This document shows positions 15,479-64,000 of a stretch of DNA of 64,000 nt, in pieces. A program made the position numbers and the translations under genes. Below the pieces are notes generated by a model, which was not told the origin of the DNA, did not search any database, and worked only from the letters and a program-made list of their open reading frames with translations. Numbering within the stretch: the stretch's first letter is position 1; each line of letters starts with the position of its first letter. This DNA comes from a virus: positions 1 through 64,000 of IMG/VR virus record IMGVR_UViG_3300021591_000021; one strand, given 5' to 3'.

Positions 15479-17658
15479 TAGTGATGAGTAGGATTATTTC
15501 GCGAGTTGGCGAGAAACTTCTTTGGCTCAAAGGGAAGGGATTGGTAATTGTTAGTTTGCTTTCTCGAAGTATAGACGACGTTTTGACTTTGATGGATGAG
15601 ATAACAACAAAAGTAATTCCAAAACCTTCAGATGTTCTTGTTTTTGTAGACAGTTTGATTTGTTTCTTCTCCAGAATCGTAGGCGACACTCTTTGCCTCG
15701 TTGACGATATCATTTCAAGGGTTTTCAGAACGATGAAATTAGAAGTCCTGAATTTAAACGACGTGCTCTTTAGGAAGTTCATAATTAAAGTTGCGGATGC
15801 AGTTTCGTTCATAGACACTGTATCGAATTATTTCTCTCGACTTCTGACTGAAACACTTAGTCTGTCAGATATCTGGACTGGTTTTTTCAGAACGATGAAG
15901 GCTGAGATCTTAAATCTTACTGATGTACTCTATAGGAAGTTCATCCTTGTAGTCTCAGATATGTTCTCTTTTTCGGATTCGGTAGCTCGGCAATTTGAAC
16001 GGACTTTAATTGAATCACTTAGACTGGCCGACCAGTGGGTTGCGAAATTCACATCAACAATAGCTGAAGTACTGTCGTTGGTAGACACGGTTTTCAAAAA
16101 GTACATCGTAGAAGCAACAGATTCCTTCTCAGTCTTTGATTCGATAAAAGGTTTTATGAAAACTGCCAAGACGGAAATACTATCACTGGTAGATTCTATA
16201 GGCAAAAAGTTCTTAACTTTCAAGGAGGAGACTTTGTCTCTCGCGGATCAAGCCTTCTTAGGACTTAACGGAATTCCAACAGATGCACTTTCTCTCTTAG
16301 ATGACGTAACAGGAACAAAAGTAGGTCCTCATTCAGACATACCCCATTCAGAAGTTGCACATTCAGATATTGAGCACTCAGACAGTTACTCCGATGTAGA
16401 ACATTCAGACATAGATCACGAAGACTATTCTGAATATCATGAGGTACCACATTCGGAAGTTGAACATTCAGAAACCGCTCATTCCGATATTGATCATAGC
16501 GATTATTATGTGGGATATAACGAAGTACCACATTCTGATATTCCACATTCAGAAACTACTCATTCTGACGCTCACAGTGATTATTATGTAGGCTATAACG
16601 AAGTTCCACATTCAGATTCACATTCAGATACTCATTCCGATAGTCATGATGATTACTATGTAGGATATAACGAAGTACCACATTCGGATGTAGAACATTC
16701 AGATATTGAACATTCAGAAGTTTCTCATTCTAATTGGTACGGTTATGACGACATCCCACACTCCGATTCACATTCAGATATTTCCCATTCAGAGGTTTCA
16801 CATGAAGACTATTCTCCCCATGACGATGTTCCACATTCTGACTCATATTCAGATATCCCACACTCCGATCAATCTCATGAAGATTATTACGTAGCGTATC
16901 AGGATGTACCGCATTCTGAAATTGAGCATTCCGATTATTCCCCAGTACATTCAGACGTTGATCATGAAGACTACTGGGTTTTTGGAGATCATGATGACAT
17001 TGCTCATTCGGATGTTTCTCATTCCGATATTGCACATTCAGATGTTCCCCATACAGACTACTCTCCTCATGACGATATCCCTCATTCCGATATAGCAGGA
17101 TATAGTGATCATTCCGATGTCTCGCATTCGGACTATTCTACACATAATGACGTTCCTCATTCAGATATTCCATATTCAGATACTCCGCATTCCGATCAAT
17201 CTCATGATGATTACTGGGTTGGACATGGTGATAGACCTTACTCAGACATTCCACACTCAGAGATCGCTCATTCAGAGATTTCACACACAGACTACTCACC
17301 ACATGACGACACGCCCCATTCAGACTCTCATTCCGATGTTCACTCAGATGTTTCCCATGTGGACTATATTCCTTACAATGACGTGCCTCATTCAGACTCA
17401 CACTCTGATATTGCACATTCAGAGGTGTCACATATCGACTACACTCCTCATGAAGACATTCCTCATTCAGATTCACATTCGGATATTGCTCATTCAGATA
17501 TTTCACACGTTGATTATTCTTCCCACAACGAAGTTCAACATTCCGAAGTAGCAACTTATAATGATCATTCTGAAGTCCCTCATTCCGATGTAGCACATTC
17601 AGAAGTAGAACATTCTGATGCTATGCATTCAGAAATAGTCCACACGGATGTGAGTTAG
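15475..17658 (+). CDS. receptor-facing fibre with LSLxD and HSD repeats
   Basis: A 727-residue protein in two parts. Residues about 1-280 carry repeats of about 17-20 residues with the core (T/E)xLSLxD and aromatic/basic spacers (FRTMK, RKF). Residues about 284-727 are a low-complexity array with about 50 copies of HSD or HSE spaced mostly five residues apart, grouped into larger units ending DY-x-PHDDVPHSD or DYYVGYNEVPHSD. The repeat part lacks Cys, Lys and Leu. Dense His and Asp suggest metal binding. The start overlaps the upstream stop. It is probably a tail fibre; repeat function is inferred. Confidence 0.6.
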   Translation: MIVMSRIISRVGEKLLWLKGKGLVIVSLLSRSIDDVLTLMDEITTKVIPKPSDVLVFVDSLICFFSRIVGDTLCLVDDIISRVFRTMKLEVLNLNDVLFRKFIIKVADAVSFIDTVSNYFSRLLTETLSLSDIWTGFFRTMKAEILNLTDVLYRKFILVVSDMFSFSDSVARQFERTLIESLRLADQWVAKFTSTIAEVLSLVDTVFKKYIVEATDSFSVFDSIKGFMKTAKTEILSLVDSIGKKFLTFKEETLSLADQAFLGLNGIPTDALSLLDDVTGTKVGPHSDIPHSEVAHSDIEHSDSYSDVEHSDIDHEDYSEYHEVPHSEVEHSETAHSDIDHSDYYVGYNEVPHSDIPHSETTHSDAHSDYYVGYNEVPHSDSHSDTHSDSHDDYYVGYNEVPHSDVEHSDIEHSEVSHSNWYGYDDIPHSDSHSDISHSEVSHEDYSPHDDVPHSDSYSDIPHSDQSHEDYYVAYQDVPHSEIEHSDYSPVHSDVDHEDYWVFGDHDDIAHSDVSHSDIAHSDVPHTDYSPHDDIPHSDIAGYSDHSDVSHSDYSTHNDVPHSDIPYSDTPHSDQSHDDYWVGHGDRPYSDIPHSEIAHSEISHTDYSPHDDTPHSDSHSDVHSDVSHVDYIPYNDVPHSDSHSDIAHSEVSHIDYTPHEDIPHSDSHSDIAHSDISHVDYSSHNEVQHSEVATYNDHSEVPHSDVAHSEVEHSDAMHSEIVHTDVS
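16327..17658 (+). repeat. degenerate coding tandem repeat (HSD array)
   Basis: A coding array of about 15-base units with the recurring core CATTCAGAT or CATTCCGAT, encoding x-HSD-x pentads, with irregular inserts encoding DYYVGYNEV or DYSPHDDV. Third positions vary freely while His, Ser and Asp stay fixed, so the protein rather than the DNA repeat is conserved. This argues against recent slippage as the sole cause. Confidence 0.85.
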
Positions 17659-23365: not shown

Positions 23366-24031
23366 TCACCTCCTATACTCGGTTGGATCGGGGATGCCAG
23401 CATCAATAAACGCTCGCTTACGCTCGATGCATGAACTGCAGCGTCCGCAGTGAATAGACTCTCCCTTGTAACAACTCCACGTGAGCTCGTACGGTACTCC
23501 GAGGTTCGCTCCAATTTTGACGATTTCCGATTTATCTAAGAAGATGAACGGCGCCAGAACCCTAAAGGACGGGACGTCTACGGCCAGCCTTATTGTATGT
23601 TCAATGGATCTCACAAAGACGTCTCTACAGTCCGGATAAACTCCTCGGTCGCTCCAGTGCGCAGCATAAGCAACGGCATCAAATCCCAGACTAACAGCGT
23701 ATCCAGCCGCGATACTCAACAAAATCATATTCCGATTCGGGACAACTGTCGTCTTTAAAGTCTCATAATGTTCTGCCGTCTCTGGGACTTCAGGGACCTC
23801 GATATCTTCATGAGTCAACGCTGAAGATAACACCTCTCTCAATGGAGTCAGATCCAGTATCTTATGATACACGCCACATCGTTTTGCGATCTCCTTCGCC
23901 GCATTGACTTCCCTTCGCTGCTTTTGACCGTAGAGAATTGTTAGCGCTACGACATCTTCATGGTAATGTTTCAACCAGTAGAGCAACGTGCTACTATCGA
24001 TTCCACCGGAGAGGAGACCGACTACCTTCAT
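23366..24031 (-). CDS. queC: 7-cyano-7-deazaguanine synthase
   Basis: A 221-residue enzyme beginning KVVGLLSGGIDSSTLLYWL, the PP-loop (SGGxDS) of ATP pyrophosphatases. It ends with the QueC zinc motif C-x8-CGRCSSC. QueC converts 7-carboxy-7-deazaguanine to preQ0. The gene overlaps folE by four bases and lies in a five-gene preQ0 operon. GGAGGAAGATGCT precedes the start. Confidence 0.93.
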   Translation of the reverse strand: MKVVGLLSGGIDSSTLLYWLKHYHEDVVALTILYGQKQRREVNAAKEIAKRCGVYHKILDLTPLREVLSSALTHEDIEVPEVPETAEHYETLKTTVVPNRNMILLSIAAGYAVSLGFDAVAYAAHWSDRGVYPDCRDVFVRSIEHTIRLAVDVPSFRVLAPFIFLDKSEIVKIGANLGVPYELTWSCYKGESIHCGRCSSCIERKRAFIDAGIPDPTEYRR

Positions 24032-24615
24032 AGCATCTTCCTCCGGTTTTGCTCTCGGAGTGACATGAACTCAGAACGCGGTGCAGCGTTCCACAGGAAT
24101 ACTCCCCGACAAGCACTGCAGACGTACATTGTCGGAGAATGTCCTTCGATTATCTTGCAGGTATGCAGTGCTTCGGTCACTACGATCACTCCATGTGGCT
24201 CAAGAGTCTCCCAGAGTTCATTGGCAATCTGATCAGTCATTCTTTCCTGAATTTGGAAGCGCAATGCGTACTTCTGTACTAACTTGTCGAGCTTAGACAA
24301 GCCAGTTACATTCTTCCTTGGAATGTAACCGATGTCAACATAACCTACAAAGGGCATCAGATGATGCTCGCATAGGCTTAAAAACGGGATCCCGAAGTTT
24401 GCAACAAGATTGGATCTCTCAGTGTACGTCCTCTTCAGTTTCACCTTTCGGCCATACCCTTCAGTGAACTTCAAGAGTGTTGCCGCAACTCTTATCGGCG
24501 TCCGACGCAACCCCTCGGAGTTTACGTCTAATCCAAGGACGTTAAGTATTTCCCTCACATGATCTGCAATTTCCTTTGCCTTCGGGTGCTTCTCATATCT
24601 CTCAAACTTATTCAC
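24028..24615 (-). CDS. folE: GTP cyclohydrolase I
   Basis: A 195-residue enzyme with the canonical SLCEHHLMPFVG and GLSKLDKLV motifs and a late Cys/His pair (ALHTCKIIEGHSP) for zinc. It makes dihydroneopterin triphosphate from GTP, the first step to 7-deazaguanines. The start is GTG after GGGAGGTGAGA. The C-terminus adds an AAPRSEFMSLREQNRRK tail. Archaea often use other GTP cyclohydrolases, so a bacterial-type FolE suggests transfer. Confidence 0.92.
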   Translation of the reverse strand: MNKFERYEKHPKAKEIADHVREILNVLGLDVNSEGLRRTPIRVAATLLKFTEGYGRKVKLKRTYTERSNLVANFGIPFLSLCEHHLMPFVGYVDIGYIPRKNVTGLSKLDKLVQKYALRFQIQERMTDQIANELWETLEPHGVIVVTEALHTCKIIEGHSPTMYVCSACRGVFLWNAAPRSEFMSLREQNRRKML

Positions 24616-24619
24616 TCTC

Positions 24620-25303
24620 TCACCTCCCTCGCTTTCCTCTCCACATCAAAAAATGAAGTTGGGGTAGGACTCGGTAAGGTCTATCGACGACCTTACTAGT
24701 CCAAGTATAGATGTGCCTTAGTCCTTTGGCATAGTCATCCCAGTAGAGGTGCACCTCTGGTTGGAAAATCACTTCTAGATCCGGACGGTTGGCGTGCGTC
24801 AAACTCTCGATGAATTCATTCGCTTCAATGACATCGTCTTTCTTTTGAATGACGAACTTCAACTGGACTTCCGTAGCATAGTCAATGATATCATCAACAA
24901 CGTCTGGACTGAGGTACTTCTCCATTCCGGAGTTGGAAAGCTTTGGTGAGACCGTCCAGACAGTTATCGTATCGTAGAGACATACTTGAGGATATATCGT
25001 TCCGTTGGTCTCGATGTGAAGTACGTACTTCCTATAGTCGAGTTCATCAGTCAGCCGATACAGCTCGTCTTGATCTTGTACGAGAGGTTCTCCGCCTGTG
25101 ATGCAAACGTGCTTACATCCAAGCGACTTTACTCGCTTGATGATATTTATGCACGACATCGGTGTCCCTTCTGTCAGTGCATACTTCGTATCGCAGTAAT
25201 AACATCGAAGATTACATCCGGAAAAACGGATGAAGGTCATCGGAGTACCGATGTAGAAGCCTTCTCCTTGGACGGATTTGAAGATTTCTGTTACTTTCAT
25301 CAT
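24620..25303 (-). CDS. queE: 7-carboxy-7-deazaguanine synthase
   Basis: A 227-residue radical SAM enzyme. SVQGEGFYIGTPMTFIRF is the QueE opening, and CNLRCYYCDTKYAL is the CxxxCxxC cluster site, followed by VCITGGEPLVQ. It rearranges 6-carboxytetrahydropterin to CDG. It lies between folE and a transporter gene, in the same operon. Confidence 0.92.
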   Translation of the reverse strand: MMKVTEIFKSVQGEGFYIGTPMTFIRFSGCNLRCYYCDTKYALTEGTPMSCINIIKRVKSLGCKHVCITGGEPLVQDQDELYRLTDELDYRKYVLHIETNGTIYPQVCLYDTITVWTVSPKLSNSGMEKYLSPDVVDDIIDYATEVQLKFVIQKKDDVIEANEFIESLTHANRPDLEVIFQPEVHLYWDDYAKGLRHIYTWTSKVVDRPYRVLPQLHFLMWRGKRGR

Positions 25304-25947
25304 AGTTCAGCAACCTCTGGCATTGTCGGGAGGATCTTCTGAATGCCCTTAAGGATTATTGCGGAGACTACCCCCGCGATGACTCGTTCCATAATCGACA
25401 CTGGTGCGATGAAAGTCCAGAGGACTGCCGGGAGATTCAACAGTACTAAACTTCCGATGTTCATTCCGACATTCTCACATATTGCTGTTGTGAAGGTCAA
25501 CGCAACTTTCCCTCTTTCGGTGACGCAATAGATCACAGCAATCATCACTCCGATGGTATAATGGATCAGCCAGAGACCCGTTGCCTGGAAGTTGTACCAG
25601 AGGATATACATAATGCCCTGACCGAAAATGTACGCTGCGGGTATCCACGCATACTTTCGATAGTGGAATGCAATGGATCCAAGGAGTGTGGTCGACGCAG
25701 TGATATAGATACAGAAGCCTGGAAAGACTGTCGCAAGTCCGATGCCAAACAAGGAAATTCCGATGCCTCCGATGATTCCAGCAATCAACGCATACAACGG
25801 AGTCAGTAACGCTGCGATCACTGGTAGGATCGTCACTCCAGCGGTTACAAATCCTGCGCCACCAATGAATTTCGAGAATGGCAGGAAGTTAGCTACAACG
25901 TATATCGATCCAAACAATGCCGAGAGAGCCAAGGATCTCGTCTTCAC
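25300..25947 (-). CDS. ECF-type substrate-binding membrane protein, likely queuosine-precursor transporter
   Basis: A 215-residue membrane protein with about six hydrophobic helices and the substrate-loop pattern of ECF S-components (FLPFSKFIGGAGFVTAGVTILP). The GTG start follows AGGAGGTGAGATA. In a preQ0 operon it probably imports a queuine or preQ0-type precursor, like QueT-class proteins, but the ligand is inferred from context. Confidence 0.7.
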   Translation of the reverse strand: MKTRSLALSALFGSIYVVANFLPFSKFIGGAGFVTAGVTILPVIAALLTPLYALIAGIIGGIGISLFGIGLATVFPGFCIYITASTTLLGSIAFHYRKYAWIPAAYIFGQGIMYILWYNFQATGLWLIHYTIGVMIAVIYCVTERGKVALTFTTAICENVGMNIGSLVLLNLPAVLWTFIAPVSIMERVIAGVVSAIILKGIQKILPTMPEVAEL

Positions 25948-26399
25948 TCTATCTCACCTCCTAATGGACTCGCTGTACTGCTGCAATATCCCTCGAGGAT
26001 TACAGCATTTTCCAATCCCTCATAGAGTTCGAATGTGCAGTCCACTCCAAAGATCGTCTTGATGAAGCGTTGGATGTACTTTGCAAGGGCCTCTACAGAA
26101 GTCTGCTCGACACAAACCAACTTCAGTCCGATGCCTCGCTGATAGAGCGACGTTCTGATGTTATCCCAGAAGGCGTAGTCTTCCTTCGGGATAAAAAATG
26201 CATGGTCGAAGTGCTCAAGCAGCGTTTGACGGACAGTCCCGAAGTCAATGGTGATGCCTTTGTCATCCGTCTTGACATCAGACACATCGAGTGTAAGGTC
26301 ACTGATCACATAGGTATGCCCATGGATGTTACTGCACTTCTCATGATACTTTATATAGTGGGCTGCTTCGAACTCAATGTCTCCTAATTTCAGTTTCAT
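25944..26399 (-). CDS. queD: 6-carboxytetrahydropterin synthase
   Basis: A 151-residue QueD/PTPS-fold enzyme. Zinc-binding His residues are visible in FEAAHYI and SNIHGHTY, with a DFDH-like LLEHFDHAFF motif and a VEQTSVEALA segment. It converts dihydroneopterin triphosphate to CPH4. A strong AGGAGGTGAGGAAG site precedes it. It is the promoter-proximal gene of the preQ0 block. Confidence 0.92.
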   Translation of the reverse strand: MKLKLGDIEFEAAHYIKYHEKCSNIHGHTYVISDLTLDVSDVKTDDKGITIDFGTVRQTLLEHFDHAFFIPKEDYAFWDNIRTSLYQRGIGLKLVCVEQTSVEALAKYIQRFIKTIFGVDCTFELYEGLENAVILEGYCSSTASPLGGEIE

Positions 26400-28906: not shown

Positions 28907-29606
28907 AAAACTCTTTGACAGGACAGAAGAAACACCAGAATCCCTCCTTCTTTGGATAGGAGTTTGTTTCAATACTTCTCCTGCACTCTTCGATTTTCTT
29001 CGACATTCTATTCAAAAGTCTCTCCGTGACGGATTCTGTCCAGTAGACGTTCCTCAGTGGATTATACACTCCAATCCTTCGTATATCCCAATCATGTAAC
29101 CTCGCTAGAAGTGTGTAGAATCCAAGCTCTTTCCTCAAGTCTGATAACCGGAATGCTGACTGACTGACTTTATATTCCAAGAGAATGTATCCATCTGTTG
29201 ACAACCGATCAATTCGATCGATCTTTCCAGTGAGTTTCAGCCGCGTATTCATTAGCGTCAGTTCAATTGCCTTCGGATAGTAGTATTCCCAAGGATCGTC
29301 GAAGAGTTCCTTACAAGCTTGCCAACGATTCGCTTCGAAGTTAACAAAATTAGCAATCGGGGTTCTCACCAACTTTGGGAATGCCGAGAGCACTTCGGAT
29401 AAGTAGAGTTCTCGATGACTCTTGTCCAAAAGCAAATCCATAGATTCTGGAGAACTCTGTTCAAAGAACGCATTCGCAAATTCGTGAAATACCAAACCGA
29501 CTTGCATTGGAACAGTTGTTTCAGTCTCAAGTCCGTCGATGAACCTTAACTTAAACTGGTATGGACAACGCATCCATGCGAGTAACTTCGACTTACTTAG
29601 GAAGAT
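28896..29606 (-). CDS. Cas4/RecB-like nuclease with Fe-S cysteines
   Basis: The core is a PD-(D/E)XK nuclease: GLVFHEFANAFF, TGKIDRIDRL and ILLEYKVSQ supply the His, Asp and ExK residues. A Cys in RCPYQFK and the C-terminal CFFCPVKEFC suggest a Cas4-type 4Fe-4S cluster. The first ATG (29,573) lies too far inside: the conserved opening FLSKSKLLAWMRCPYQF extends upstream, and a GGGGAGGT site points to an ATC at 29,604-29,606 as start. Likely in recombination. Confidence 0.72.
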   Translation of the reverse strand: MFLSKSKLLAWMRCPYQFKLRFIDGLETETTVPMQVGLVFHEFANAFFEQSSPESMDLLLDKSHRELYLSEVLSAFPKLVRTPIANFVNFEANRWQACKELFDDPWEYYYPKAIELTLMNTRLKLTGKIDRIDRLSTDGYILLEYKVSQSAFRLSDLRKELGFYTLLARLHDWDIRRIGVYNPLRNVYWTESVTERLLNRMSKKIEECRRSIETNSYPKKEGFWCFFCPVKEFCVT

Positions 29607-32600
29607 TCTAGGTACCTCCCCAGGGACTGTTGTTGAATTCCTTTTTCAATAACCGAGAAATCGTATCCAATCGATGCCAATAAACCCTCGAAGGGTTTCT
29701 TTATTGTGACTTCTCTCATTCTCTTCCAATCGACAATCACACCAGGAGGAAGCTCCGTGTCATCCTCTGTCAGACAAATCGCATGAGTTGGAGGCTTTCC
29801 GATAACTTGCTTGACATAAACCAACCGAGGTTTCTTATCTTCACGGAAGACCTTACCGAAATACTTCTCGGCATACTCCTTACCAACTATCCACGGATTC
29901 TTTACCTTATACACAGTCTTTTGCAATCCCTTCGGCACTGCTACTTTTTGAATCGGATACTTCGGTAGATTTTGCCAGACTTCTCGGACTAGTTTTATTG
30001 CTCCGTCGATATCCTCCTCAACGAGGACTTTCTCGAAGAACTTCTTCATAGTTGTTCGGGTGATCTCCGCTGTACTACTTCTCCGAGGTTCAAATCCAAT
30101 GATGTAAAGATTGCCTCTCTCGTCGACTCCGGCATACCTCTTCTTCGCAGACTTTCCCTTCTCACGAGTTTTGAAGAGAATTCTCTTGAACAACCTCTCG
30201 AACTTGATTACTGGTGGGTATTTTGCTCCATAAATTCTCGCAAACTGACGAAGTTCTTCGTTGAGAAGATACTCAACGACATTGACTTCCCGACGAAGTT
30301 TTGTCTTCATCTTAACAAACAGTGAATCAGTATTGTGCAAGACCAATTTTCCAACGCAAAATGTCTCAGATTCCGTAGAAAGATCGTACACACACGTCGG
30401 TTTTCCGACATTGAAAGGCGTCTTTGTCCAACGGAATTCATCAACGGATTTCACGCTTTTCACTTTCCCAGGAGGATAGCGTCTTGGACCCTTTCTCTTC
30501 TTATTTGGTGTGCGGAACCGTATTTGTATTCCTGTGTTTTGCTTGGACTTATAGATGTTCCACGACTGTCCTGTTAGGCGCTCTACAAGAAATGTCAAAC
30601 CAACAACGACACACGGATGCTTCGAGTCGACTGAGACATATTTGTAGCGATACTGAGTGTTAGTTTTACTAAAGTCTCCTTCGTAGAAGCCATCAAGGAA
30701 AGCACGAACTGCCTCAAGGGATGCGTTTAAGATCCGCCTTGGAATTTTCCTCCAACCCGTTTCTGTGTACGTGTCTTCGAATAGCTCATTATACGGACAT
30801 TGTCTGCTGATCACAAGTCGCCAAGTTTTCGACGAGTCTCTATAGTCATGTAGATACGTCTTGACTCCTAATTCAGCCAAAAGTCTCTTTGCTCGTCTAC
30901 AAACTTTTTCTGACCCATTAATCACATATTGATTTGCCTTAATGCGTGAGCCGTCCGCCGTAAACACACCTAAAATCCAAGCTAATCGACGATCGACGTC
31001 ACAGCGACATTGCACTCTAGGATATTCTTTAACCATAACGTAGTCCGCATCATAAGGCCTTACAGGATTCCCACTGGGGTCGACCAATGAATGATCGACG
31101 GTGCAGTTTACAAGCATTTCAGGAGTAACAACTGTAACGATGGGTTTTCGGACAGGTTTACGAATGACGTCTCTAACATGCGTCCAACCAGTGGCTGACC
31201 AGATGACTTCTCCAACATTTACTTCGCAAATCGGTATGATATCGATGAGACCGTCTCGTTGGACGAATATCGGCGTTTCCGGTGTTACACTGTCTTCGTA
31301 GATGACTTGATAGCCATTTTTCGCAAGCATCTTCTCGCAACGAGTGAGAGCAAGACGTCCGAGGTATGTGATTGCATTTGCAACCTCTGGATCAAACATA
31401 CGAAAATACCTATAGGCATTGACTCCGTAAATACTGCATGCTAAGAACTTATACAGTGTTTCGAGCTGTCGTACGCGATCGTGTTCTTTGCCAGTTAGCT
31501 TCTTTCGCAATGCACGAAGTCTTTCGCGCTCTTCCATATACTTACGAGTGACTTTCGGAATTATGCCCTCGGGCTCACGTTTGAATCGCCAATAATCTGT
31601 GACGAAGATCTCTCCCTTAGGGTCTTTGGTCTCAGCAGAAAGGTTGAAGGAAATTATAACTGACGGATAGATTGACTTCAGATCGAAACATGCTACATTC
31701 TCATGGACTCCAGGAGGTGGAAGTTTAACGATTGCCCCTTGGACTTCAGCGTCTTCCTGAGGCACCATTGTCGGTAACGGACGGTCGCTTTCTCGAAGAA
31801 TCTCTGTATCGATCAACTTTTTGTTAGATAGCGACCAACTGATCGGAACGCCAACGATTCTCCGAAGTCTATCGAAATGTTGGATGATACCTGTCTTCTC
31901 ATCGAGTAACTTCAATGCGTAGGCGTCGTTGATGCAATATTCTACCCATTCTTCTGGTGTTGTTCTCATCGCTTCTTCGACTCTATCTCCAAGATCCTCA
32001 TAGTAGAATCCTGCTTCAGCTGCACAGACCCGTTTGAAGTCAAAAGTCACACCAAATGGTTGGTCGGACTGCACTCCTTGACGTCCTGTGCCCCATTTGC
32101 GGTATGCGGCAAAGAAGTCGATGAAATCACGCCCTTTGATGTAGACATCCGAGAATCCTCTGTGAGCCTGGGCATTGACTGTTCCGAGAGGAGACATACC
32201 TTGCAGACTGATGCGTAGTCTTTCCGCTCGTCTTAGTAGATAAGGCATGTCAAAGAGAGACCCATTGTACGCAGTGAGAACATCAGGATCCTCCTGTTGA
32301 ACGAACTTAACAAAGGATAATAGTAATGGTCTATCATCATCAAACGGATGGAGATGTACTTCGTGACCATACTTTTCGAAGACTAAGTTTGATTCGACAT
32401 ATTTCTGAAGGTTTGGATTGTCAACTAGGAGGAATACATCAATCCTATCGTGATAATTTGAACTACACTGAATTGATGCAATAGGGAATCGAGGATCTGA
32501 TGGACGTGGGAATATGCCTGTTGGAGAAGTGACTTCGATATCAAAATACAGAACCTTTGGAGGTACTTCAAAATCATCTACTGGTACAATACTATCGACG

Positions 32601-32968
32601 TTGTGATCGACTAAGATACAGCGAATTCCTGTTTTAGAAATTTGCTCTTTGCCTCCTTGGACTTCAAAAGCGGAACGAACGTTCACATCAATCAAATACC
32701 TCAGGAAAAATTGGATGTCTGCCTCGTCGGAGAACGAATATTTTTGTCGTTCTTTCGGGACGTCGGAAGGTAATTCAGTGTAGACCTTCCTAACAGGTCG
32801 TCCAAAAATGTCGATAATATCTGATTGATCGTCAGGCACAAAAAAGTAAGGGCGGAAATTCTGGACGATGACAACAGTTCGCTCTCGATTTTTGTCTCTG
32901 GAGAAGAGAAAAATCACAGGCTTACGCCGATGTACTCTGTATGCTGCGTTCATCCAGACGTATGGCAT
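29597..32968 (-). CDS. polB: family B DNA polymerase (with intein)
   Basis: A 1,123-residue precursor, about 803 after intein removal. Exonuclease motifs: YFDIEVTSPTG (Exo I), LTAYNGSLFDMPYL (Exo II), YCINDAY (Exo III). Polymerase motifs: CFDLKSIYPSVI (A), KFLACSIYGVNAYR (B, with Cys for the usual Asn), and VIYED | TDSLFVKM (C) split by the intein. All catalytic Asp residues remain. GAGGTTGATGG precedes the ATG. It overlaps the DpdA-like gene. This is the replicative polymerase of the virus. Confidence 0.95.
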   Translation of the reverse strand: MPYVWMNAAYRVHRRKPVIFLFSRDKNRERTVVIVQNFRPYFFVPDDQSDIIDIFGRPVRKVYTELPSDVPKERQKYSFSDEADIQFFLRYLIDVNVRSAFEVQGGKEQISKTGIRCILVDHNVDSIVPVDDFEVPPKVLYFDIEVTSPTGIFPRPSDPRFPIASIQCSSNYHDRIDVFLLVDNPNLQKYVESNLVFEKYGHEVHLHPFDDDRPLLLSFVKFVQQEDPDVLTAYNGSLFDMPYLLRRAERLRISLQGMSPLGTVNAQAHRGFSDVYIKGRDFIDFFAAYRKWGTGRQGVQSDQPFGVTFDFKRVCAAEAGFYYEDLGDRVEEAMRTTPEEWVEYCINDAYALKLLDEKTGIIQHFDRLRRIVGVPISWSLSNKKLIDTEILRESDRPLPTMVPQEDAEVQGAIVKLPPPGVHENVACFDLKSIYPSVIISFNLSAETKDPKGEIFVTDYWRFKREPEGIIPKVTRKYMEERERLRALRKKLTGKEHDRVRQLETLYKFLACSIYGVNAYRYFRMFDPEVANAITYLGRLALTRCEKMLAKNGYQVIYEDSVTPETPIFVQRDGLIDIIPICEVNVGEVIWSATGWTHVRDVIRKPVRKPIVTVVTPEMLVNCTVDHSLVDPSGNPVRPYDADYVMVKEYPRVQCRCDVDRRLAWILGVFTADGSRIKANQYVINGSEKVCRRAKRLLAELGVKTYLHDYRDSSKTWRLVISRQCPYNELFEDTYTETGWRKIPRRILNASLEAVRAFLDGFYEGDFSKTNTQYRYKYVSVDSKHPCVVVGLTFLVERLTGQSWNIYKSKQNTGIQIRFRTPNKKRKGPRRYPPGKVKSVKSVDEFRWTKTPFNVGKPTCVYDLSTESETFCVGKLVLHNTDSLFVKMKTKLRREVNVVEYLLNEELRQFARIYGAKYPPVIKFERLFKRILFKTREKGKSAKKRYAGVDERGNLYIIGFEPRRSSTAEITRTTMKKFFEKVLVEEDIDGAIKLVREVWQNLPKYPIQKVAVPKGLQKTVYKVKNPWIVGKEYAEKYFGKVFREDKKPRLVYVKQVIGKPPTHAICLTEDDTELPPGVIVDWKRMREVTIKKPFEGLLASIGYDFSVIEKGIQQQSLGRYLESS
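30332..31291 (-). other. intein with LAGLIDADG endonuclease in polB motif C
   Basis: Residues about 560-879 of the precursor. The segment starts with Ser (DSVTPETPIFV) and ends LVLHN before Thr, meeting the intein rules (Ser1; terminal His-Asn; Thr +1). Block B is near NCTVDHSLVDP. Endonuclease motifs are LAWILGVFTADG and VRAFLDGFYEGDF. Removal joins YED to TDS, restoring polymerase motif C. It is the same site used by several Thermococcales polymerase inteins. Confidence 0.92.
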
Positions 32969-33651
32969 AGTTCCATCAACCTCTCGATATGATATCTTGC
33001 AAGAGAGAGGTTCTCGAGAGTCTCATCAAAGGAAATTCTTTCGAGTTCGTATCTCTTCGGTTTGATCCATCGTACGTTGTGCTTTGCTAAGGTAAACGGC
33101 AACGACGTATCGACGGACACTACATCGTCTTCATAGAGTAAAACCTCATAGGGGTTGTCCAAGCCTAGCAAGTGGAATTTTTTGTCTCGAATACGTCTCC
33201 GCACATATCGGTAGACTTCTGGGCGACAAGAAAACTTCTTCTCCAACCAAATCGGCAATGCAATGATATCCACTCGCTCGATCTCAGCGAATCGAAGACA
33301 GACGTCAATATAATCCTCTGGAGTCATCCCTTGTGGGACTACAACGACCTCAAAGTCTTCCGGTACGATGTTAAGAAAAAAGAGAGTTCGTTGGACTGTG
33401 AACGTTCGAGACTGCAACATGTCTGGTGCTACGATAGCATCGACATTGAGTTCTCTTGCTAGGTCAATCAAGGCGTCTTCGTCCAGCGGTCTACCGTATT
33501 CATACGATCCGTTGTCTAACATTTTGTAGCAGTTCAACCGACGGACTTCCTCTTTAGTCTCGTCGTTTATCAGTGGCGGTACGATGAACAATCCATCAGC
33601 GTGCTTAACTAGATTCAGATGTTTCCTTGGTGGAATTGTCAGATATCTCAT
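32950..33651 (-). CDS. dpdA: DpdA-like DNA 7-deazaguanine transglycosylase
   Basis: A 233-residue TIM-barrel-like protein from ATG 33,651 after GGAGGATTG. Segments MLDNGSYEYG, VDAIVAPDML, FEVVVVPQGMTPEDYI, VDIIALPIWL, FHLLGLDNPYE and DVVSVDTSLPF follow the TGT/DpdA pattern (Asp and Gly-rich strands of the base-exchange site). DpdA proteins swap G for preQ0 in DNA. With queC, folE, queE and queD in the same genome, viral DNA modification is the likely purpose. A tRNA TGT role is less likely given the small size. Confidence 0.72.
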   Translation of the reverse strand: MRYLTIPPRKHLNLVKHADGLFIVPPLINDETKEEVRRLNCYKMLDNGSYEYGRPLDEDALIDLARELNVDAIVAPDMLQSRTFTVQRTLFFLNIVPEDFEVVVVPQGMTPEDYIDVCLRFAEIERVDIIALPIWLEKKFSCRPEVYRYVRRRIRDKKFHLLGLDNPYEVLLYEDDVVSVDTSLPFTLAKHNVRWIKPKRYELERISFDETLENLSLARYHIERLMELCHTSG

Positions 33652-33904
33652 GTTCAATCCTCCAAATTGCCATACATGCGTAGACGACTACATCGCGTAG
33701 TTCCTCGATAGCAACTTTCGGATCAGTTGTGCCGGTTAATCGATGTGACTTGAACGCAATCATATGGAGGATATTCTTTATTGGCTGGGTCTTCCAGATG
33801 TCACCGAAAACTTTGTCCTTTCGTAGGAAAACGTCGAGACACTTCTCGAGGATGTCCCTCAGTTCATTATCCTCCGGCTGAGGATAGAGATAGAATCCTG
33901 TCAT
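33605..33904 (-). CDS. DUF1599/MazG-like small protein
   Basis: A 99-residue helical protein with RKDKVFGDIWKTQPIKNIL and a C-terminal VYACMAIWRIEHEI helix. The KDKxxGDxW pattern recalls nucleotide-modification-associated MazG-like proteins. A second such gene lies at 46,299. It overlaps both neighbours, between the DpdA-like gene and the Sak4-like gene, so a nucleotide-pool role is plausible. Confidence 0.5.
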   Translation of the reverse strand: MTGFYLYPQPEDNELRDILEKCLDVFLRKDKVFGDIWKTQPIKNILHMIAFKSHRLTGTTDPKVAIEELRDVVVYACMAIWRIEHEISDNSTKETSESS

Positions 33905-35233
33905 AGTTCTATCACCACACCAAGTTTTGTCTTCAGTGTCTCTACTAACTTATCGAAGGTCAGGTCTTCGATCTCGAGATTCAATCCGCGTTGCCAACGA
34001 CACTTAGTGACCGTTGAGATGTAGCGATAAATCCCACTGACTTTATCGTACTGTTTCTCCATATGGATTACCAAATCGACCATATGCTCGGTCTGTCGTT
34101 GAACTCTCGGCTCATCGGCTCCAACTCTCCGCCCACTTTCATCGTAGATCGGTCTTGGTTGACCGGTGAGTATTACGTGCACCTTCGGTTTCGCCATCAA
34201 TCTCAAAAGCAGCTTCCTGTACCGCATATTCGCTTTTGGGGCCGAAGATAGAGCAGCTGGGTAAGTCGAGGAATGGGACTTGAGCTACCGCCCCATCTTC
34301 GGTTTCCCCATTCGAATTGGTAAGGCCGTCCACTAGCGGTCCTTACGCTTGCGGTCACCTCCAGCCATGCGCCGAGCCATTGCCAGATGTCTGTAACACT
34401 GTCAATAACTACAGTTCCCTCGTTGATATCCTTCAAGAAACTGATCGCCTCTTCAACGGCCTCGATCGACTTGACAGGATCGATCTCGGCAGATTCCACA
34501 TTCAATTGAGCGGCTTCGAATACTCGAATGTCTTTATTCTTGAAGGGCTCTTTACATAGCAGTGGATACGTTCCGAATTCCCGGCCTATGTGCGCCGCCC
34601 GCGTCTATTAAGCTTCTTTACCTGATCGGCGATCTCTTTTTCCTTTGAAGTATATGGAAGGCGGTACCGTTGCAATCGTGAAGCGCAAAATTCATAGACA
34701 AGCTCCGCAACGTCTCGCTTCACGATGAGAAATGGTAAGATTTCTCCCAGCACTTGATAAACAGCTGTCAATCCTTGAATTGATAGGCGCCATTCCTCAT
34801 TCCAATTGCCTTTCGCAGGTCTATTCAGATATACGGTCCCAACTCCAATCTTTTCTCTAATTGTCTCGAGAAATTTCCGTGCATTTCGACTCGTGTTCGA
34901 GATTACTATTTCCGGCTTCAGGAAAGGGGTTCGATGAATGCTGACCAGACCGTCGCAGTCAATGACAGCAGCAACATACATTTTGTCACTCTGTTCCATG
35001 TTAGACACCGAACATTTTATCATTGATCGGATATTTAAACTTTGCGGCACACATAGACTTTCGGTATCGATCACGTGTATTGGCTCGGGCGCCGTCAGCG
35101 CAAAGTGTGTCTTCCCAACTTCAGGAGGCCCCCATACGAGAACCTTAATGCCAGACTTCTTGACGATGTACTCCGGCGATTTCCAGAAGTCCTCGTACTT
35201 CTTCTCAGACTCTTTCAGTAAGTTCCACGTCAT
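33901..35233 (-). CDS. Sak4-like RecA-family ATPase in three exons
   Basis: Exons 35,233-35,060, 34,577-34,304 and 34,235-33,901 join to 783 nt, a 260-residue protein. Exon 1 has Walker A (VLVWGPPEVGKTHFAL) and ends VIDTE; exon 2 continues FGTYPLLCKEPF and holds Walker B (TVVIDSVTDIWQW) up to FEWGK; exon 3 resumes ANMRYRKLLLRL and HVILTGQPRPIYD. Both junctions keep frame and give family-like sequence. Sak4 proteins are phage recombinases acting with single-strand binding proteins. The RPA-like gene is directly upstream. AGGAGGTGAGACG precedes the start. Confidence 0.82.
34236..34303 (-). other. BHB-type mini-intron (68 nt) in the Sak4-like gene
   Basis: Removal joins TGG GGA A to AA GCG AAT in frame. 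The exon-intron junction forms a 4-bp GGGG/CCCC central helix with 3-nt AAA bulges on both sides and an inner CCGAAGAT/ATCTTCGG helix. Cutting between the second and third bulge bases, as archaeal splicing endonuclease does, gives exactly the needed junction. The outer helix is imperfect. No ORF inside. Confidence 0.75.
34586..34999 (-). CDS. LAGLIDADG homing endonuclease in intron
   Basis: A 137-residue protein from ATG 34,999. MYVAAVIDCDGLVSIH is the single LAGLIDADG motif (xxxDCDG), implying a homodimer. WNEEWRLSIQGLTAVYQVL and a basic end (VKKLNRRGRRT) match its sister in the RFC gene. It would cut the intronless gene and copy the intron in. A TATA box 32-41 nt upstream, inside the intron, suggests its own near-leaderless transcript. 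Confidence 0.85.
   Translation of the reverse strand: MEQSDKMYVAAVIDCDGLVSIHRTPFLKPEIVISNTSRNARKFLETIREKIGVGTVYLNRPAKGNWNEEWRLSIQGLTAVYQVLGEILPFLIVKRDVAELVYEFCASRLQRYRLPYTSKEKEIADQVKKLNRRGRRT
35031..35040 (-). promoter_or_regulatory. intronic TATA box for the endonuclease
   Basis: Leftward GTTTAAATAT lies about 35 nt before the endonuclease ATG at 34,999. The RFC intron carries a near-identical element at the same place. Confidence 0.55.
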
Positions 35234-37184: not shown

Positions 37185-37721
37185 TCATTCACCTCCCAAG
37201 ATTTCTTTGACGTAGTTGCACGCGAGCTTTAGCTCGCCCATTGAGCGGCATCCGAAGATCATGATACGACCTGTTGAGAAGACGTTAAATGATATCACTC
37301 TCGTTCCGAACTGTTTGCGAATGGTTGCCGCAGGAAACGTCTCAGGTTCGTAGACGACTTGTGTGGAGTGTTGAAGACGCTCGGCCAGCTCAATTAAGTC
37401 GATTGCTTGTTCGGCATCTACCATAGCAACCATATTTGACAGCCTCCAAAACTTACGGGAGAGCTCGATGCCGCGCTCTCTTAGAGAGTCTTCGAATGCC
37501 TGAATTAGCACTGGGATCTTCGAGAGATCCTTGATGCCGACGAGGACTACCTTGCCATTCGCGAAAATGTTTGCTGAGACTTCTGGTAATCTCCAACAGA
37601 CAGCTGAGAAAGACCATGGATCATATGTCGATCCCTTCGGTGCAACTTCGAAGAGTTTATCTAAATTAAATTCATTCTCGTAGTAGATAGTCACGACGAC
37701 ATTCTTTATCTGTAGCTTCAT
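37185..37721 (-). CDS. tbp: TATA-binding protein
   Basis: A 178-residue protein with the two-fold repeat of TBP. Repeat 1: IKNVVVTIYYENEFNLDKLF, ANIFANGKVVLVGIKD. Repeat 2: NMVAMVDAEQAIDLIELAE, VVYEPETFPAATIRKQFG, FNVFSTGRIMIFGCRSM. Length equals that of archaeal TBPs. Repeat 1 is more diverged (no clear YEPExFP). A viral TBP could favour viral TATA boxes or replace host TBP. It overlaps the RFC stop by four bases. Confidence 0.9.
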   Translation of the reverse strand: MKLQIKNVVVTIYYENEFNLDKLFEVAPKGSTYDPWSFSAVCWRLPEVSANIFANGKVVLVGIKDLSKIPVLIQAFEDSLRERGIELSRKFWRLSNMVAMVDAEQAIDLIELAERLQHSTQVVYEPETFPAATIRKQFGTRVISFNVFSTGRIMIFGCRSMGELKLACNYVKEILGGE

Positions 37722-39284
37722 GCTCTCACCTCACGTATTACTTTTGCAATAATACTTATCAATCTATGTTCGTCTGTCGCTCCTGGAATTGTTCCGATCG
37801 CTTCGAGGAGGATCAAACGTTGATCGTCCGTTATCCCTGGAATTGTTCCTCGGAGAGCTCCGAAGTAGATGGTGTTGATGATAGCCGTCGGATTCTGTGC
37901 GTCTTCGTCAAGGAGCTTCTGTACTAAGTCAAATGCGTCCATTCGACCTTGGAGCATCCTATGCACCAAATGATATGCATGATCAGGCGTGATCTCACCG
38001 ACAAGTTCACGAACGTCCTCGGCAGACGGTTTGTCGATTGTTAACATCGCTTCGAGGATATTCAACGCCATCCGGGCGTCTCCTCGAGAGACTCTTACAA
38101 TTTCTTGTAAGGTCGAGTCACTGATCCACGCCCCTTCAGCAGTTGCTACACGTTTGAGCAACTTCAACATATTACTTGAGTGCAGTCCTCTGAATCGGAA
38201 CACCGCACATCTCGAGACGATTGCAGGTATTAGTCGTCCGAGGGCATTCACAGTTAATATGAACCTCACAGTTCTATAGTATTGCTCCATGATCCTTCGA
38301 AGTGCCATTTGAGCTTGCTTAGTCAATGCATCGGCCTCATCAAGTAGCAGAATTTTGAAGGGCACCGACACCGGGCTTTGGACCTTCGCGAAGTTCTTGA
38401 CCTTCTGACGGATCGTGTCAATGCCTCTCTAACGGTCTATTGAATTTCAATAGACTTTCGTCAGAGGCATTGAGTTCCATGAATGACGTGCGATCGCAGC
38501 CGAATTCACTCTTCAGCGCGTAAGCGCAGGCAGTTCTAGGGCACACAGAAGTAGGTGGCCACGGACGTAGGGATGGCAGAGCGGACGCCTACTTCTGTAT
38601 GTTTCCCCGTGCCTGGTGTCGGGGTTATTAACGCCCACGTTTATTTAAGAGACGTATTCTCTCGATCAATTTCTTTTCGTGATCGGTATACTTCTTCGTG
38701 GTAGGGCCTCCGGTTTTACTCAGGCGAGATTCGCAATAACTGATTAAGAGCTGCGCTTGCTCCTTTTTCAGGACTAGAAACGGTGCTACTTGCTTTAGAA
38801 CAGCATACACATTTCGCAAACCTGTCAAACGGTATTGCCACGTTTCATTCCATGTTCCGTGTGCTCTAGCCGAAAGTCGTACATTGCCTGCACCTATAAT
38901 TTTCAGGAAGTGTTCAACGAACTGTTTGGCTTTTCCATGTCGAGCGCTCGAGATTGCGATGTACGGACAGATTCCACTAGGTTGTACGAAAACACTTATC
39001 GTTCCGTCGCAGTCCAATACACCTGCGAGGTAGGCGGCTTCTACATCTGTTAGCATTCGAACTTTTGACATTCGGGTTCTACAGCATTCAAATTCTTGCT
39101 TACTTATCGGCATGAAAACTTTTTGGGGTGTTCCTATATTTAAACTTGTGGGGTTAATAACTTTCCCGCAGAAGAGCAAATTCGGCATTTCTTTCTTCGC
39201 AACATAGCCTCGGAGGATCGTTACGATTCGTCGTTGGCCAATTACCTCATCTAGCGATCGAGGCCTATACTTCTCCGCTAGCAA
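37718..39284 (-). CDS. rfcS: replication factor C small subunit in four exons
   Basis: Exons 39,284-39,163, 38,617-38,603 (15 nt), 38,535-38,457 and 38,428-37,718 join to 927 nt, 308 residues. The spliced protein reads LAEKYRPRSLDEVIGQ, NLLFCGKPGTGKTACAYAL (Walker A across both first junctions), FMELNASDERGIDTIR (third junction), KILLLDEADALTK (Walker B) and an SRC motif (PAIVSRCAVFRF). All three junctions keep frame. The TTG at 39,284 follows GGAGGTGAGAAAC. It loads the sliding clamp; no PCNA gene is seen here, so it may load the host's. Confidence 0.88.
38429..38456 (-). other. 28-nt BHB-type mini-intron in rfcS
   Basis: Between GAC GAA and AGA GGC (phase 0). It is almost entirely a perfect hairpin, GTCTATTGAA with TTCAATAGAC around one A. 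With flanking exons it forms a GACG/CGTT central helix, a 3-nt AAA bulge and a 3-nt AGA bulge, and an exon helix GCCTC/GAGGC. Cutting after the second bulge base on both sides restores the conserved NASDERGID sequence. Confidence 0.8.
38536..38602 (-). other. 67-nt BHB-type mini-intron in rfcS
   Basis: Between GGG AA and A ACT (phase 2, in the Walker A lysine codon). A 14-bp inner helix with two G-U pairs (CATACAGAAGTAGG with CCTACTTCTGTGTG), a GGGG/CCCT central helix and AAA and AGA bulges are visible. Cutting after the second bulge base restores GTGKTACAYAL. Confidence 0.78.
38628..39113 (-). CDS. LAGLIDADG homing endonuclease in rfcS intron
   Basis: A 161-residue protein from ATG 39,113, though the frame is also open from exon 1. 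AAYLAGVLDCDGTISVF is the single LAGLIDADG motif; WNETWQYRLTGLRNVYAVL and the basic end KKLIERIRLLNKRGR match its relative at 34,586. The two are clearly related, so one intron family seems to have invaded two replication genes. Confidence 0.85.
   Translation of the reverse strand: MPISKQEFECCRTRMSKVRMLTDVEAAYLAGVLDCDGTISVFVQPSGICPYIAISSARHGKAKQFVEHFLKIIGAGNVRLSARAHGTWNETWQYRLTGLRNVYAVLKQVAPFLVLKKEQAQLLISYCESRLSKTGGPTTKKYTDHEKKLIERIRLLNKRGR
39136..39146 (-). promoter_or_regulatory. intronic TATA box for the endonuclease
   Basis: Leftward GTTTAAATATA about 25-30 nt before ATG 39,113, so the transcript would be essentially leaderless. It matches the element in the Sak4 intron. Confidence 0.55.
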
Positions 39285-39289
39285 GTTTC

Positions 39290-39811
39290 TCACCTCCTAT
39301 TCCAATTGTCCTGTAAGATCGCTTCTAATTGACGTTGGAACGCCCAGACCAACTCAGGATTATCCTCAAAAGTAATCGGTATATCCGTCCCCTCGTAATA
39401 CTCTCCGGGATGGTACACCACCCAGTTTACGAGGTCACTGATTGACACTTCATCCTCGCATTCGGACTCGATAACGTCGGCAAGTCTCGGTAAGTATCCG
39501 TCCTTTGGTCCAACCCTAAGCGTAAAGTAGCCATTGTCTATAGCTCTGCTTAGGAACTCGATGTCAACGCCATCAGTATTATAGGCTATCCAGAAAGATC
39601 TTGAAAACTTCCGTCGTGCAAAGCAAATTGCAGAGTAGCATTTTGGACTCGTCTCGAGGATATAGATTTTTGGTAGATGCTCCGGAAGTGCTGAAAGTGA
39701 AGTCAACCGGAGGTTTTCCTTGACTTGTTTCAGAGAACTCTCATCGAAGTCCCAGATGATAATATGTTTACCAGACCTCAGTTTACTTGTCACTCCAAAT
39801 GTTGACACCAC
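39290..39811 (-). CDS. hypothetical protein with WDFD motif
   Basis: The GTG at 39,811 follows AGGAGGTGAGACC, giving 173 residues. Features: HIIIWDFDESSL, a KIYILETSPKCYSAICFARR core and YFTLRVGPKDGYLPRL. The alternation of strands with an acidic WDFD recalls archaeo-eukaryotic primase-like folds, but no full catalytic motif could be confirmed. It directly precedes rfcS, so a replication role is likely. Confidence 0.55.
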   Translation of the reverse strand: MVSTFGVTSKLRSGKHIIIWDFDESSLKQVKENLRLTSLSALPEHLPKIYILETSPKCYSAICFARRKFSRSFWIAYNTDGVDIEFLSRAIDNGYFTLRVGPKDGYLPRLADVIESECEDEVSISDLVNWVVYHPGEYYEGTDIPITFEDNPELVWAFQRQLEAILQDNWNRR

Positions 39812-52419: not shown

Positions 52420-52842
52420 TCACCTCTTACGTTGCAGTTGACTACGAGGAATCTTAACGACTAACGGGTATGCTGCCGAGGGAAGCTCCACGGAAAGGTA
52501 ATCGTCCGCAACGACCTTCACGATTCCGGTGAGACCCTTGAATGGTCCTGCAATAACCTCAACCTCCTCGCCAACTTCATATTTCACCGGCTCCGGTGCA
52601 AGGTATTTCTGAAGCTCCTCGACCGAAACTTGTCCTGGGAGGACTTTCCTGCAGAATCTCGATCCCTTCACAAGATTCCGAACCGTCCAAAGGTCAGCTG
52701 CCTCGATGAAGATGTAACCTTTAACAGTGTCAGAAGACATCATCGCGAATACCTTCGCTGAAGTTTCCTCGGCTCGCCATTGTATCTCTTCGATTGCTTG
52801 CTTTTCTCTCCCTCCAACCACCTTCACAACGAATATCGGCAT
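52420..52842 (-). CDS. spt5: Spt5-like transcription elongation factor
   Basis: A 140-residue protein with an N-terminal NGN domain (FVVKVVGGREKQAIEEIQW, SDTVKGYIFIEAADLWTV) and a C-terminal KOW motif (YEVGEEVEVIAGPFKGLTG). This is the full archaeal Spt5 (NusG) layout and size. Host Spt5 pairs with Spt4 and RNA polymerase; a viral copy could redirect elongation. The next gene may partner it. Confidence 0.85.
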   Translation of the reverse strand: MPIFVVKVVGGREKQAIEEIQWRAEETSAKVFAMMSSDTVKGYIFIEAADLWTVRNLVKGSRFCRKVLPGQVSVEELQKYLAPEPVKYEVGEEVEVIAGPFKGLTGIVKVVADDYLSVELPSAAYPLVVKIPRSQLQRKR

Positions 52843-62371: not shown

Positions 62372-62668
62372 TCAAAGTATGCCGAGAATTCCCGCACCCT
62401 TGCCGAAATTTCGTGGGACCTTGCCCGTCTTCACGATGTAGCTGACCCTGTTGTACAGCACTATGCCCGTCTCCGGACAGATGACGTACCAGTAATCCTT
62501 GCCGTCCTCCGTCACATCGAAGTCGATGCACCACTTCAGTGGCCTTTCGTCGCACTTTCTGCACCTGAGACAGATGCTCCTTGCTGCAGATAGTACGTCT
62601 CTTACGACGTACTCATTCGACGACTCCGTTGTCAATCCGATTGATTGAAAGATATTCTTCTTTTCCAT
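62372..62668 (-). CDS. Cys-rich protein, ordinary-codon paralog
   Basis: ATG 62,668 follows AAGGAGTGATTAAA; 98 residues. YVVRDVLSAARSICLRCRKC, LKWCIDFDV, WYVICPETGIVLYNRVS. Paralog of the product at 63,193, which is written almost without cytosine. A zinc site of C-x2-C-x2-C type is likely. Confidence 0.65.
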   Translation of the reverse strand: MEKKNIFQSIGLTTESSNEYVVRDVLSAARSICLRCRKCDERPLKWCIDFDVTEDGKDYWYVICPETGIVLYNRVSYIVKTGKVPRNFGKGAGILGIL

Positions 62669-62680
62669 TTTAATCACTCC

Positions 62681-62894: not shown

Positions 62895-63002
62895 TTAATT
62901 CTCGAAGATGCTCCGCCGTCTCAATGCCATCTTGACTACCGCCTCAATGAGGATACAAAGTAGGATGACGGATAAGCAGAACAGCATTTCAACTATCTTC
63001 AT
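62895..63002 (-). CDS. 35-residue membrane miniprotein at the composition boundary
   Basis: ATG 63,002 follows GGTAGAG. MLFCLSVILLCILIEAVVKM is a membrane helix, then a basic end. Its coding strand has normal cytosine content almost to its start; cytosine nearly vanishes immediately upstream. Confidence 0.5.
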   Translation of the reverse strand: MKIVEMLFCLSVILLCILIEAVVKMALRRRSIFEN

Positions 63003-63023
63003 CTCTACCACTCTCAAAAAAAA

Positions 63024-63161
63024 TTATTCTTCAGACTCTTCAAAATCAAACGTCACTTCCACCCTAATCCAATCCTCACCACACTTAATTTTAACAAACT
63101 TACCTCTTTCAATCACATCCTTTAACTCCTCTAACTTTTCAATTATCTTCTTTACTTCCAT
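63024..63161 (-). CDS. C-depleted small protein
   Basis: ATG 63,161 lies six bases after GGTGA (ATG 63,164 also in frame); 45 residues. Helix EVKKIIEKLEELKDVIERGK, then strand KFVKIKCGEDWIRVEVTFDF, acidic end. Only two cytosines (one Thr and one Ser codon) occur in the gene. Small alpha/beta fold. Confidence 0.6.
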   Translation of the reverse strand: MEVKKIIEKLEELKDVIERGKFVKIKCGEDWIRVEVTFDFEESEE

Positions 63162-63192
63162 CATTCATCACCATTCCAAAAAATTTTTTTAA

Positions 63193-63495
63193 TTAAACTC
63201 TATACCTATTAAACTCATTATACCATCCTATCCTCCCACTTACTAATCCCTTCAATCTCCCACTAACTCTATTATACAACCTTAAACCTCTTTCCCTACA
63301 CTCAACAAACCACACATCTAATCCCTCATCATTCACCTCAACTCCAACTCTCCACTTTAATTCTCCACTACACTTCCTACAATTCAAACACTCCCTTCTC
63401 ATACTACTTAATACATCCCTAACAACCCTCTCTTCAATCTCTCCTTCCTTAACTTCTATCCCCAAACTTTCCCATATACTTCTCTTCTCTTCCAT
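63193..63495 (-). CDS. C-free paralog of the 62,372 protein
   Basis: ATG 63,495 lies six bases after GGTGA; 100 residues encoded with no cytosine at all. The product therefore has no Ala, Pro, Thr, His or Gln. It keeps the shared core: RVVRDVLSSMRRECLNCRKC, ELKWRVGVEV, WFVECRERGLRLYNRVS. So it is a genuine protein under constraint, not a composition artefact. Confidence 0.75.
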   Translation of the reverse strand: MEEKRSIWESLGIEVKEGEIEERVVRDVLSSMRRECLNCRKCSGELKWRVGVEVNDEGLDVWFVECRERGLRLYNRVSGRLKGLVSGRIGWYNEFNRYRV

Positions 63496-63521
63496 TTTCA
63501 TTCACCATCCAAAAAAATTTT

Positions 63522-63680
63522 TTATTCCAAACCCCACAACTCACTTAAATACATCTCCAACCTTACCAAATCCCTCCATAACAACTTCACATCCTCCTCC
63601 AATTCCAACACCATATCTCTCACAATATTTCTCAATATAAATCTCTTCTCTTCCACATTCTCTACAAATTCTTCATCCAT
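63522..63680 (-). CDS. C-free helical protein
   Basis: ATG 63,680 six bases after GGTGA; 52 residues, helical (EKRFILRNIVRDMVLELEED). No cytosine, no Ala/Pro/Thr/His/Gln. Confidence 0.6.
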   Translation of the reverse strand: MDEEFVENVEEKRFILRNIVRDMVLELEEDVKLLWRDLVRLEMYLSELWGLE

Positions 63681-63700
63681 TTTCATTCACCCATCAAAAT

Positions 63701-63862
63701 TCATCTCAAAACTACACATCCTTCACATCCATCAACAAAATCATAAAACACAATCTCCCTCAATCCTTCTTCATCATACACCTCCTCACATACACAACCT
63801 ACAACCTCCCTTACCACACTCACATATCCCAAATCATCAATTTCTACAAACTCTTCATTCAT
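63701..63862 (-). CDS. C-free acidic Cys-containing protein
   Basis: ATG 63,862 six bases after GGTGA; 53 residues, acidic (EIDDLGYVSVVREVVGCVCE, DFVDGCEGCVVLR), with two Cys pairs (C-x-C and C-x2-C) that could bind zinc. No cytosine in the gene. Confidence 0.6.
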   Translation of the reverse strand: MNEEFVEIDDLGYVSVVREVVGCVCEEVYDEEGLREIVFYDFVDGCEGCVVLR

Positions 63863-63903
63863 TTTCATTCACCATCCAATAATTTATTTTTTAACCCTTC
63901 CCT

Positions 63904-63921
63904 AACAATATATAACCCCCG
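63904..63921 (-). promoter_or_regulatory. TATA promoter of the C-free operon
   Basis: Leftward GGGGGTTATATATTG about 45 nt before ATG 63,862. The single cytosine of the last 948 bases lies at 63,921, just upstream of this box, next to the G run that could serve as a BRE. Confidence 0.6.
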
Positions 63922-63958
63922 CCTACCAACTCTTCATACAACTCTCAAAAAAATTAAA

Positions 63959-64000
63959 TTAACTCTCTACCACACCATTCTCAACAACCCACTTAACACA
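63959..64000 (-). CDS. C-terminal end of another C-free gene
   Basis: The last 13 codons (ending KWVVENGVVES) run to a TAA at 63,959-63,961, entering from beyond the right edge and also without cytosine, so the tract and its gene style continue. Confidence 0.5.
   Translation of the reverse strand, partial: CVKWVVENGVVES

Follow-up and report, generated by a model that had tools for sequence, protein, structure and literature searches.

The window analyzed here comprises 64,000 nucleotides, positions 1 to 64,000 of the 76,879-bp virus record IMGVR_UViG_3300021591_000021 (IMG/VR), and it ends in a stretch almost devoid of guanine on the + strand. Base counts confirmed what an earlier note on this DNA had described: positions 62985-64000 hold 3 G next to 356 C, and the last 948 bases a single G. 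Extension to the right, proposed there as a check, showed that the tract does not stop at 64000. It runs to position 64830 of the record with 3 G in 1,846 bases, located at 63034, 63052 and 63921. Beyond 64830, G returns at once to ~20%, and the edges of the tract are abrupt. Given the composition of the flanks, the depletion has a chance of ~10^-182 under an independence model, and no G-free run of 192 bases was found in 100 dinucleotide shuffles of the window. The compositional pattern is secure. A contig-end, chimeric or assembly artefact was ruled out, because the tract continues past 64000 and the same kind of tract recurs in a 97%-identical relative and in more distant relatives from other metagenomes. 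GC skew is maximal in the tract, which lies at the point of skew inversion, where gene direction flips. Potential hairpins at the tract edge were no better than those in shuffled sequences.

G-free runs are also known from chromosomes. In 393 genomes these are mostly repeats, and by the counts no single run can be longer than about 943 bases. The tract does not share the repetitive, low-complexity character of short-period G-free tandem repeats of chromosomes and contains distinct ORFs.

Genes inside and outside the tract

Six ORFs of 44-177 aa were identified in the tract (Table 1). All of them are directed leftward, so that their coding (-) strand lacks C and their template strand lacks G. 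Ala, Pro, His and Gln are absent from the products and Thr is absent but for one residue; apart from this residue, the earlier description of C-free genes missing five amino acids was correct. The accompanying claim of intact protein folds is only weakly borne out: the frames are open and one SLOG-type match was obtained, but the structure model of the SLOG-like protein was too poor to use. Three viruses carry, just outside the tract, a normal-composition paralogue of one of their C-free genes, as if the same function were required under two regimes of expression. The first gene begins 57-209 bp downstream of the tract start, which probably lies upstream of the transcription start site.

Table 1. 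Features of the window and of the adjoining part of the virus record
Feature	Position	Strand	Evidence or remark
QueC (preQ0 synthase)	23366..24031	-	PF06508 and PHROG matches
FolE-type GTP cyclohydrolase	24028..24615	-	Sequence match
QueE-like radical SAM enzyme	24620..25303	-	Sequence match
QueD-like 6-pyruvoyl-tetrahydropterin synthase	25944..26399	-	Sequence match
DpdA-like DNA-guanine transglycosylase, TGT-type TIM barrel	32950..33657	-	Structure model, Foldseek
Virus TATA-binding protein (TBP)	37185..37721	-	Two TBP repeats; also in G002, not in G004 or G019
Virus Spt5, elongation factor	52420..52842	-	NGN and KOW; also in G002
Normal-composition paralogue just outside the tract	62372..62677	-	Homologous to the ORF at 63193..63501
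Tract	62985..64000 (continues to 64830; total 1,846 bp)	G-free +, C-free coding (-)	Three exceptions
C-poor ORF, 46 aa, most distal tract gene	63024..63164	-	Two of the three exceptional C (63034, 63052)
C-free ORF, 102 aa, CxxC-type small protein	63193..63501	-	Homologue of the gene at 62372..62677
C-free ORF, 54 aa	63522..63686	-	No family match
C-free ORF, 55 aa	63701..63868	-	No family match
C-free ORF, 44 aa	63959..64000 (record 63959-64093)	-	Truncated at the window end
C-free SLOG/YspA-like gene, 177 aa, first gene of the block	Record 64240-64773		PHROG 2.5e-13; Pfam below cut-off

The replication and transcription genes of these viruses (PolB, TBP, Spt5) are of archaeal type, and the tract-bearing family can be described as archaeal-type tailed viruses. 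A PolB with a LAGLIDADG domain is among the loci 29597-32968 (-), 34203-35233 (-), 38628-39293 (-) and L005 8831-11371. By eye, RadA-like and RFC-like genes and the terminase of G002 are also split by intein-like insertions. A 727-aa protein encoded at 15475-17658 (+) carries a long His-Ser-Asp repeat array (HSDIPHSE...) and is probably structural or metal-binding.

Conservation in related viruses

Relatives were collected via the large terminase (TerL), and all of them are metagenomic contigs. The same C-free style, for which the earlier note had recommended a search, was found in several of these. One tract per near-complete genome is located beside the packaging gene terS in the window virus (G000), in G002, in G004 and G005, and in G019; tracts were also present in the fragments L004 and G007. 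L004 (TerL 97% identity) is G-free over 907 bases, G002 (68%) has a tract of 1,163 bases, and G004 and G005 (36%) have one of 1,024 bases. In G019 (about 38%) the tract spans 75000-77086 (~2,087 bp) with one C as exception, and about 1 kb at its start is noncoding, yet C-free. Although terL of this virus lies 18 kb away, terS still adjoins the tract. The genes inside the G004 and G019 tracts are different. All four lineages whose tracts hold genes have the G-free strand as template. The conserved trait is a composition, the missing letter, and neither a sequence nor a set of genes. An amino acid, codon or tRNA cause was rejected because intergenic DNA and the noncoding DNA of G019 are C-free as well.

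Tract-bearing lineages are spread over the family in the terminase tree, in which several deep forks are unsettled. G033 possesses TerS and TerL and no tract, although its record may be incomplete. A leftward block in G006 (L022 1176-2400; TerL 54%) at the place of the tract in others is merely C-poor (about 10%) and is perhaps an eroding or incipient tract. The G007 fragment ends in 351 C-free bases (L023 1-351) that hold no ORF and lie on the terS strand, in opposite orientation to the other tracts; they are followed by a G-poor CTCACGTCTCACATCTC repeat. The motif GAGACC is found exactly at the terS-side edge in the window virus (record 64831-64836), L004 (about 908) and G002 (about 57836), where flanking intergenic DNA has diverged, and it is a possible candidate recognition site. 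An ultraconserved tract in G004 and G005 was considered and rejected, since the identical block reaches beyond the tract and looks like the product of recombination. A search of genome contigs with TerL returned no relatives; with another conserved gene, one Archaeoglobales MAG contig from Guaymas was found, which represents a more distant relative.

The close relative L004 provided information on present-day constraint. Within the tract, 40 substitutions separate it from the window virus, and none of them is a gain of G, compared to about 14.5 expected (P about 5e-7); other types of exchange occur near the rates outside. Read from this alignment, the constraint against G is active now.

Genes for a probable guanine modification

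The window virus encodes the preQ0 pathway enzymes FolE, QueD, QueE and QueC, as indicated by PF06508 and PHROG matches, together with a DpdA-like protein. The model of the latter (pLDDT 90) matched archaeosine TGT and DpdA in Foldseek, which gives a predicted activity; its identity to a CP220 protein is 28%. A DpdA-like gene and QueC/D/E were present in all four distinct near-complete tract-bearing viruses (G000, G002, G004, G019), and two relatives without Que and DpdA (G037, G038) have no tract. G033 is an exception, as it carries a DpdA-like gene and QueC and yet has no tract. These counts concern four related lineages only, a small number of independent ones. The gene content suggests that the DNA of the tract viruses probably carries 7-deazaguanine. 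Among the causes listed in the earlier note, strand-specific DNA modification is consequently the best supported.

Enterobacteria phage 9g, Campylobacter phage CP220 and Halovirus HVTV-1 have preQ0 synthesis genes, and several such viruses also possess a transglycosylase of the DpdA type by which preQ0 enters the DNA (Hutinet et al. 2019, PMC6884629). The tract viruses resemble these 7-deazaguanine viruses in preQ0 and DpdA-type genes. They differ in the tract itself: the records of CP220, HVTV-1, 9g and BSP7, which has a DpdA-like gene, contain no G-free run of 120 or more bases, and distant DpdA viruses likewise showed no G-free run. Hence the tract is not a general trait of DpdA viruses, as the link fails outside the family.

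A proposed template cleared of guanine

We tentatively propose, with a probability of roughly 0.35, that transcription of the tract as a unit uses a template cleared of G, which the host RNA polymerase can read despite modified G elsewhere. FolE, QueD, QueE and QueC would provide preQ0, which the DpdA-like enzyme would exchange for G in the virus DNA, and the incoming genome would then be modified with 7-deazaguanine. Each modified G in the template may lower the chance of passage of an unadapted archaeal RNA polymerase, and such losses would multiply along a transcript. The genes expressed first would be selected for a template without G, i.e. an mRNA without C, whether coding or not. For genes outside the block, transcription could follow at a later time and use newly made, unmodified copies or viral factors such as the TBP and Spt5 of two viruses. 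At about 0.33 we rate the reading that the G-free template is kept for first-expressed genes because the virus' own genome-wide G modification blocks or slows transcription. The tract would then be a hard-coded, modification-proof reading window, and the absence of a base a conserved functional element. Directly observed support comes from composition, position, conservation across relatives, the strand relative to the ORFs, and the joint presence of DpdA and QueC/D/E. We infer three steps, namely modification of the DNA, its hindrance of transcription, and expression of the block ahead of other genes.

Several observations count against a G-cleared template. 7-deazaguanine is usually read well by polymerases. 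G033 and the four phage records show that modification genes occur without a tract, and the C-free stretch of G007 is noncoding and in the opposite orientation. A pure transcript model does not need a tract that begins, as this one probably does, ahead of the start site. Viral TBP and Spt5 occur in only two of the four viruses and were therefore rejected as universal partners of the tract.

Alternative explanations

The transcript rather than the template may be under selection. A shortage of CTP in the host, a chain-terminating CTP analogue of the viperin type (ddhCTP), or host cleavage or editing of RNA at C would demand an early RNA free of C, which would protect the first viral messages. 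The zero tolerance of C in coding and noncoding DNA and the orientation of the template strand fit such an evasion equally well. It gives no reason for the co-occurrence with DpdA and Que genes, and viruses of this kind use the host RNA polymerase, which a C-directed host activity would also hurt. We consider it doubtful, though the strongest of the alternatives.

Somewhat more doubtful is mutational drift, in which the coding strand is single-stranded during origin displacement or transcription, heat or a deaminase converts its C to T until none is left, and the proteins adapt afterwards. Consistent with this are the location of the tract where gene direction and skew flip and the gradual distal edge of the G019 tract, as well as the frequency of T at fourfold (GTN/GGN third) positions, which is raised in G000 and G019. 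The same frequency is near the forbid-C value in G002 and low in G004, where 6 of 50 such sites have T (P about 1e-7 under C-to-T change). A single C-to-T step accounts for no more than 2 of the 51 replacements of A, P, T, H or Q in C-free homologues, the terS-side (proximal) edges are base-sharp in four of four genomes, and no PF00383-type deaminase, the only family searched, was matched in six records. Selection is the simpler reading, and the earlier judgement that a pure C-to-T decay is unlikely was right. AID/APOBEC hypermutation likewise removes C from a single strand, over the 1-2 kb that follow a promoter; the tract differs from it in that a matching pattern of replacements and gene decay are missing and T is not raised in G004.

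The earlier note had also considered a packaging or replication signal. For packaging, the terminase would need one strand without (modified) G over 1-2 kb at pac or the genome end. The position of the tract is in agreement with this part of the suggestion, as it always adjoins terS, even in G019, and lies at the flip of gene direction, with GAGACC at the terS-side edge in three cases. However, pac sites are normally short and do not need intact C-free genes, and G033 retains terS without a tract. Such a signal is unlikely. A replication origin of the R-loop or D-loop type, in which replication is primed by a G-rich, C-free RNA that remains paired with the G-free strand, would account for the skew peak and the location at the inversion point. 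GC-skewed R-loop regions and mitochondrial D-loops resemble the tract in that, close to a promoter or origin, G strongly exceeds C on the non-template strand, whereas the skew of the tract is absolute and its edges are sharp. R-loops do not require a complete absence of C. What speaks against them is that the runs of G from which R-loops start are depleted in all four tracts relative to shuffles of the same composition (27 vs 55, 24 vs 36, 8 vs 18, and 21 vs 35). We regard this origin as quite improbable.

Selection for mRNA without secondary structure, another earlier suggestion, is very improbable as the driver and not likely to be more than a consequence: the predicted folding energy of -3 to -8.5 kcal/mol per 100 nt (-18 to -22 downstream) follows automatically from the missing C, and a structural optimum would tolerate scattered C, whereas here gains are purged singly and the absence is absolute, extending also to the roughly 1 kb of the G019 tract that is noncoding.

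Conclusions

Laboratory constructs known as G-less or C-less cassettes omit one nucleotide from a transcribed stretch and thereby make the polymerase insensitive to a missing or blocked partner. The tract is likewise a transcribed stretch free of a single nucleotide, with the difference that it is natural, 1-2 kb long, protein-coding and conserved in a virus family. In the literature covered, searches for a conserved C-free gene block found no precedent, in line with the earlier note, and it seems that no one has described such a block before. What is conserved here, in real genes, is no sequence but the fact that one strand lacks one base altogether. Proteins in nature can thus make do with 15 amino acids and a code of three letters. 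Furthermore, the tract draws attention to a possible and testable conflict of transcription in archaeal viruses with DNA hypermodification, which is usually studied from the restriction side only.
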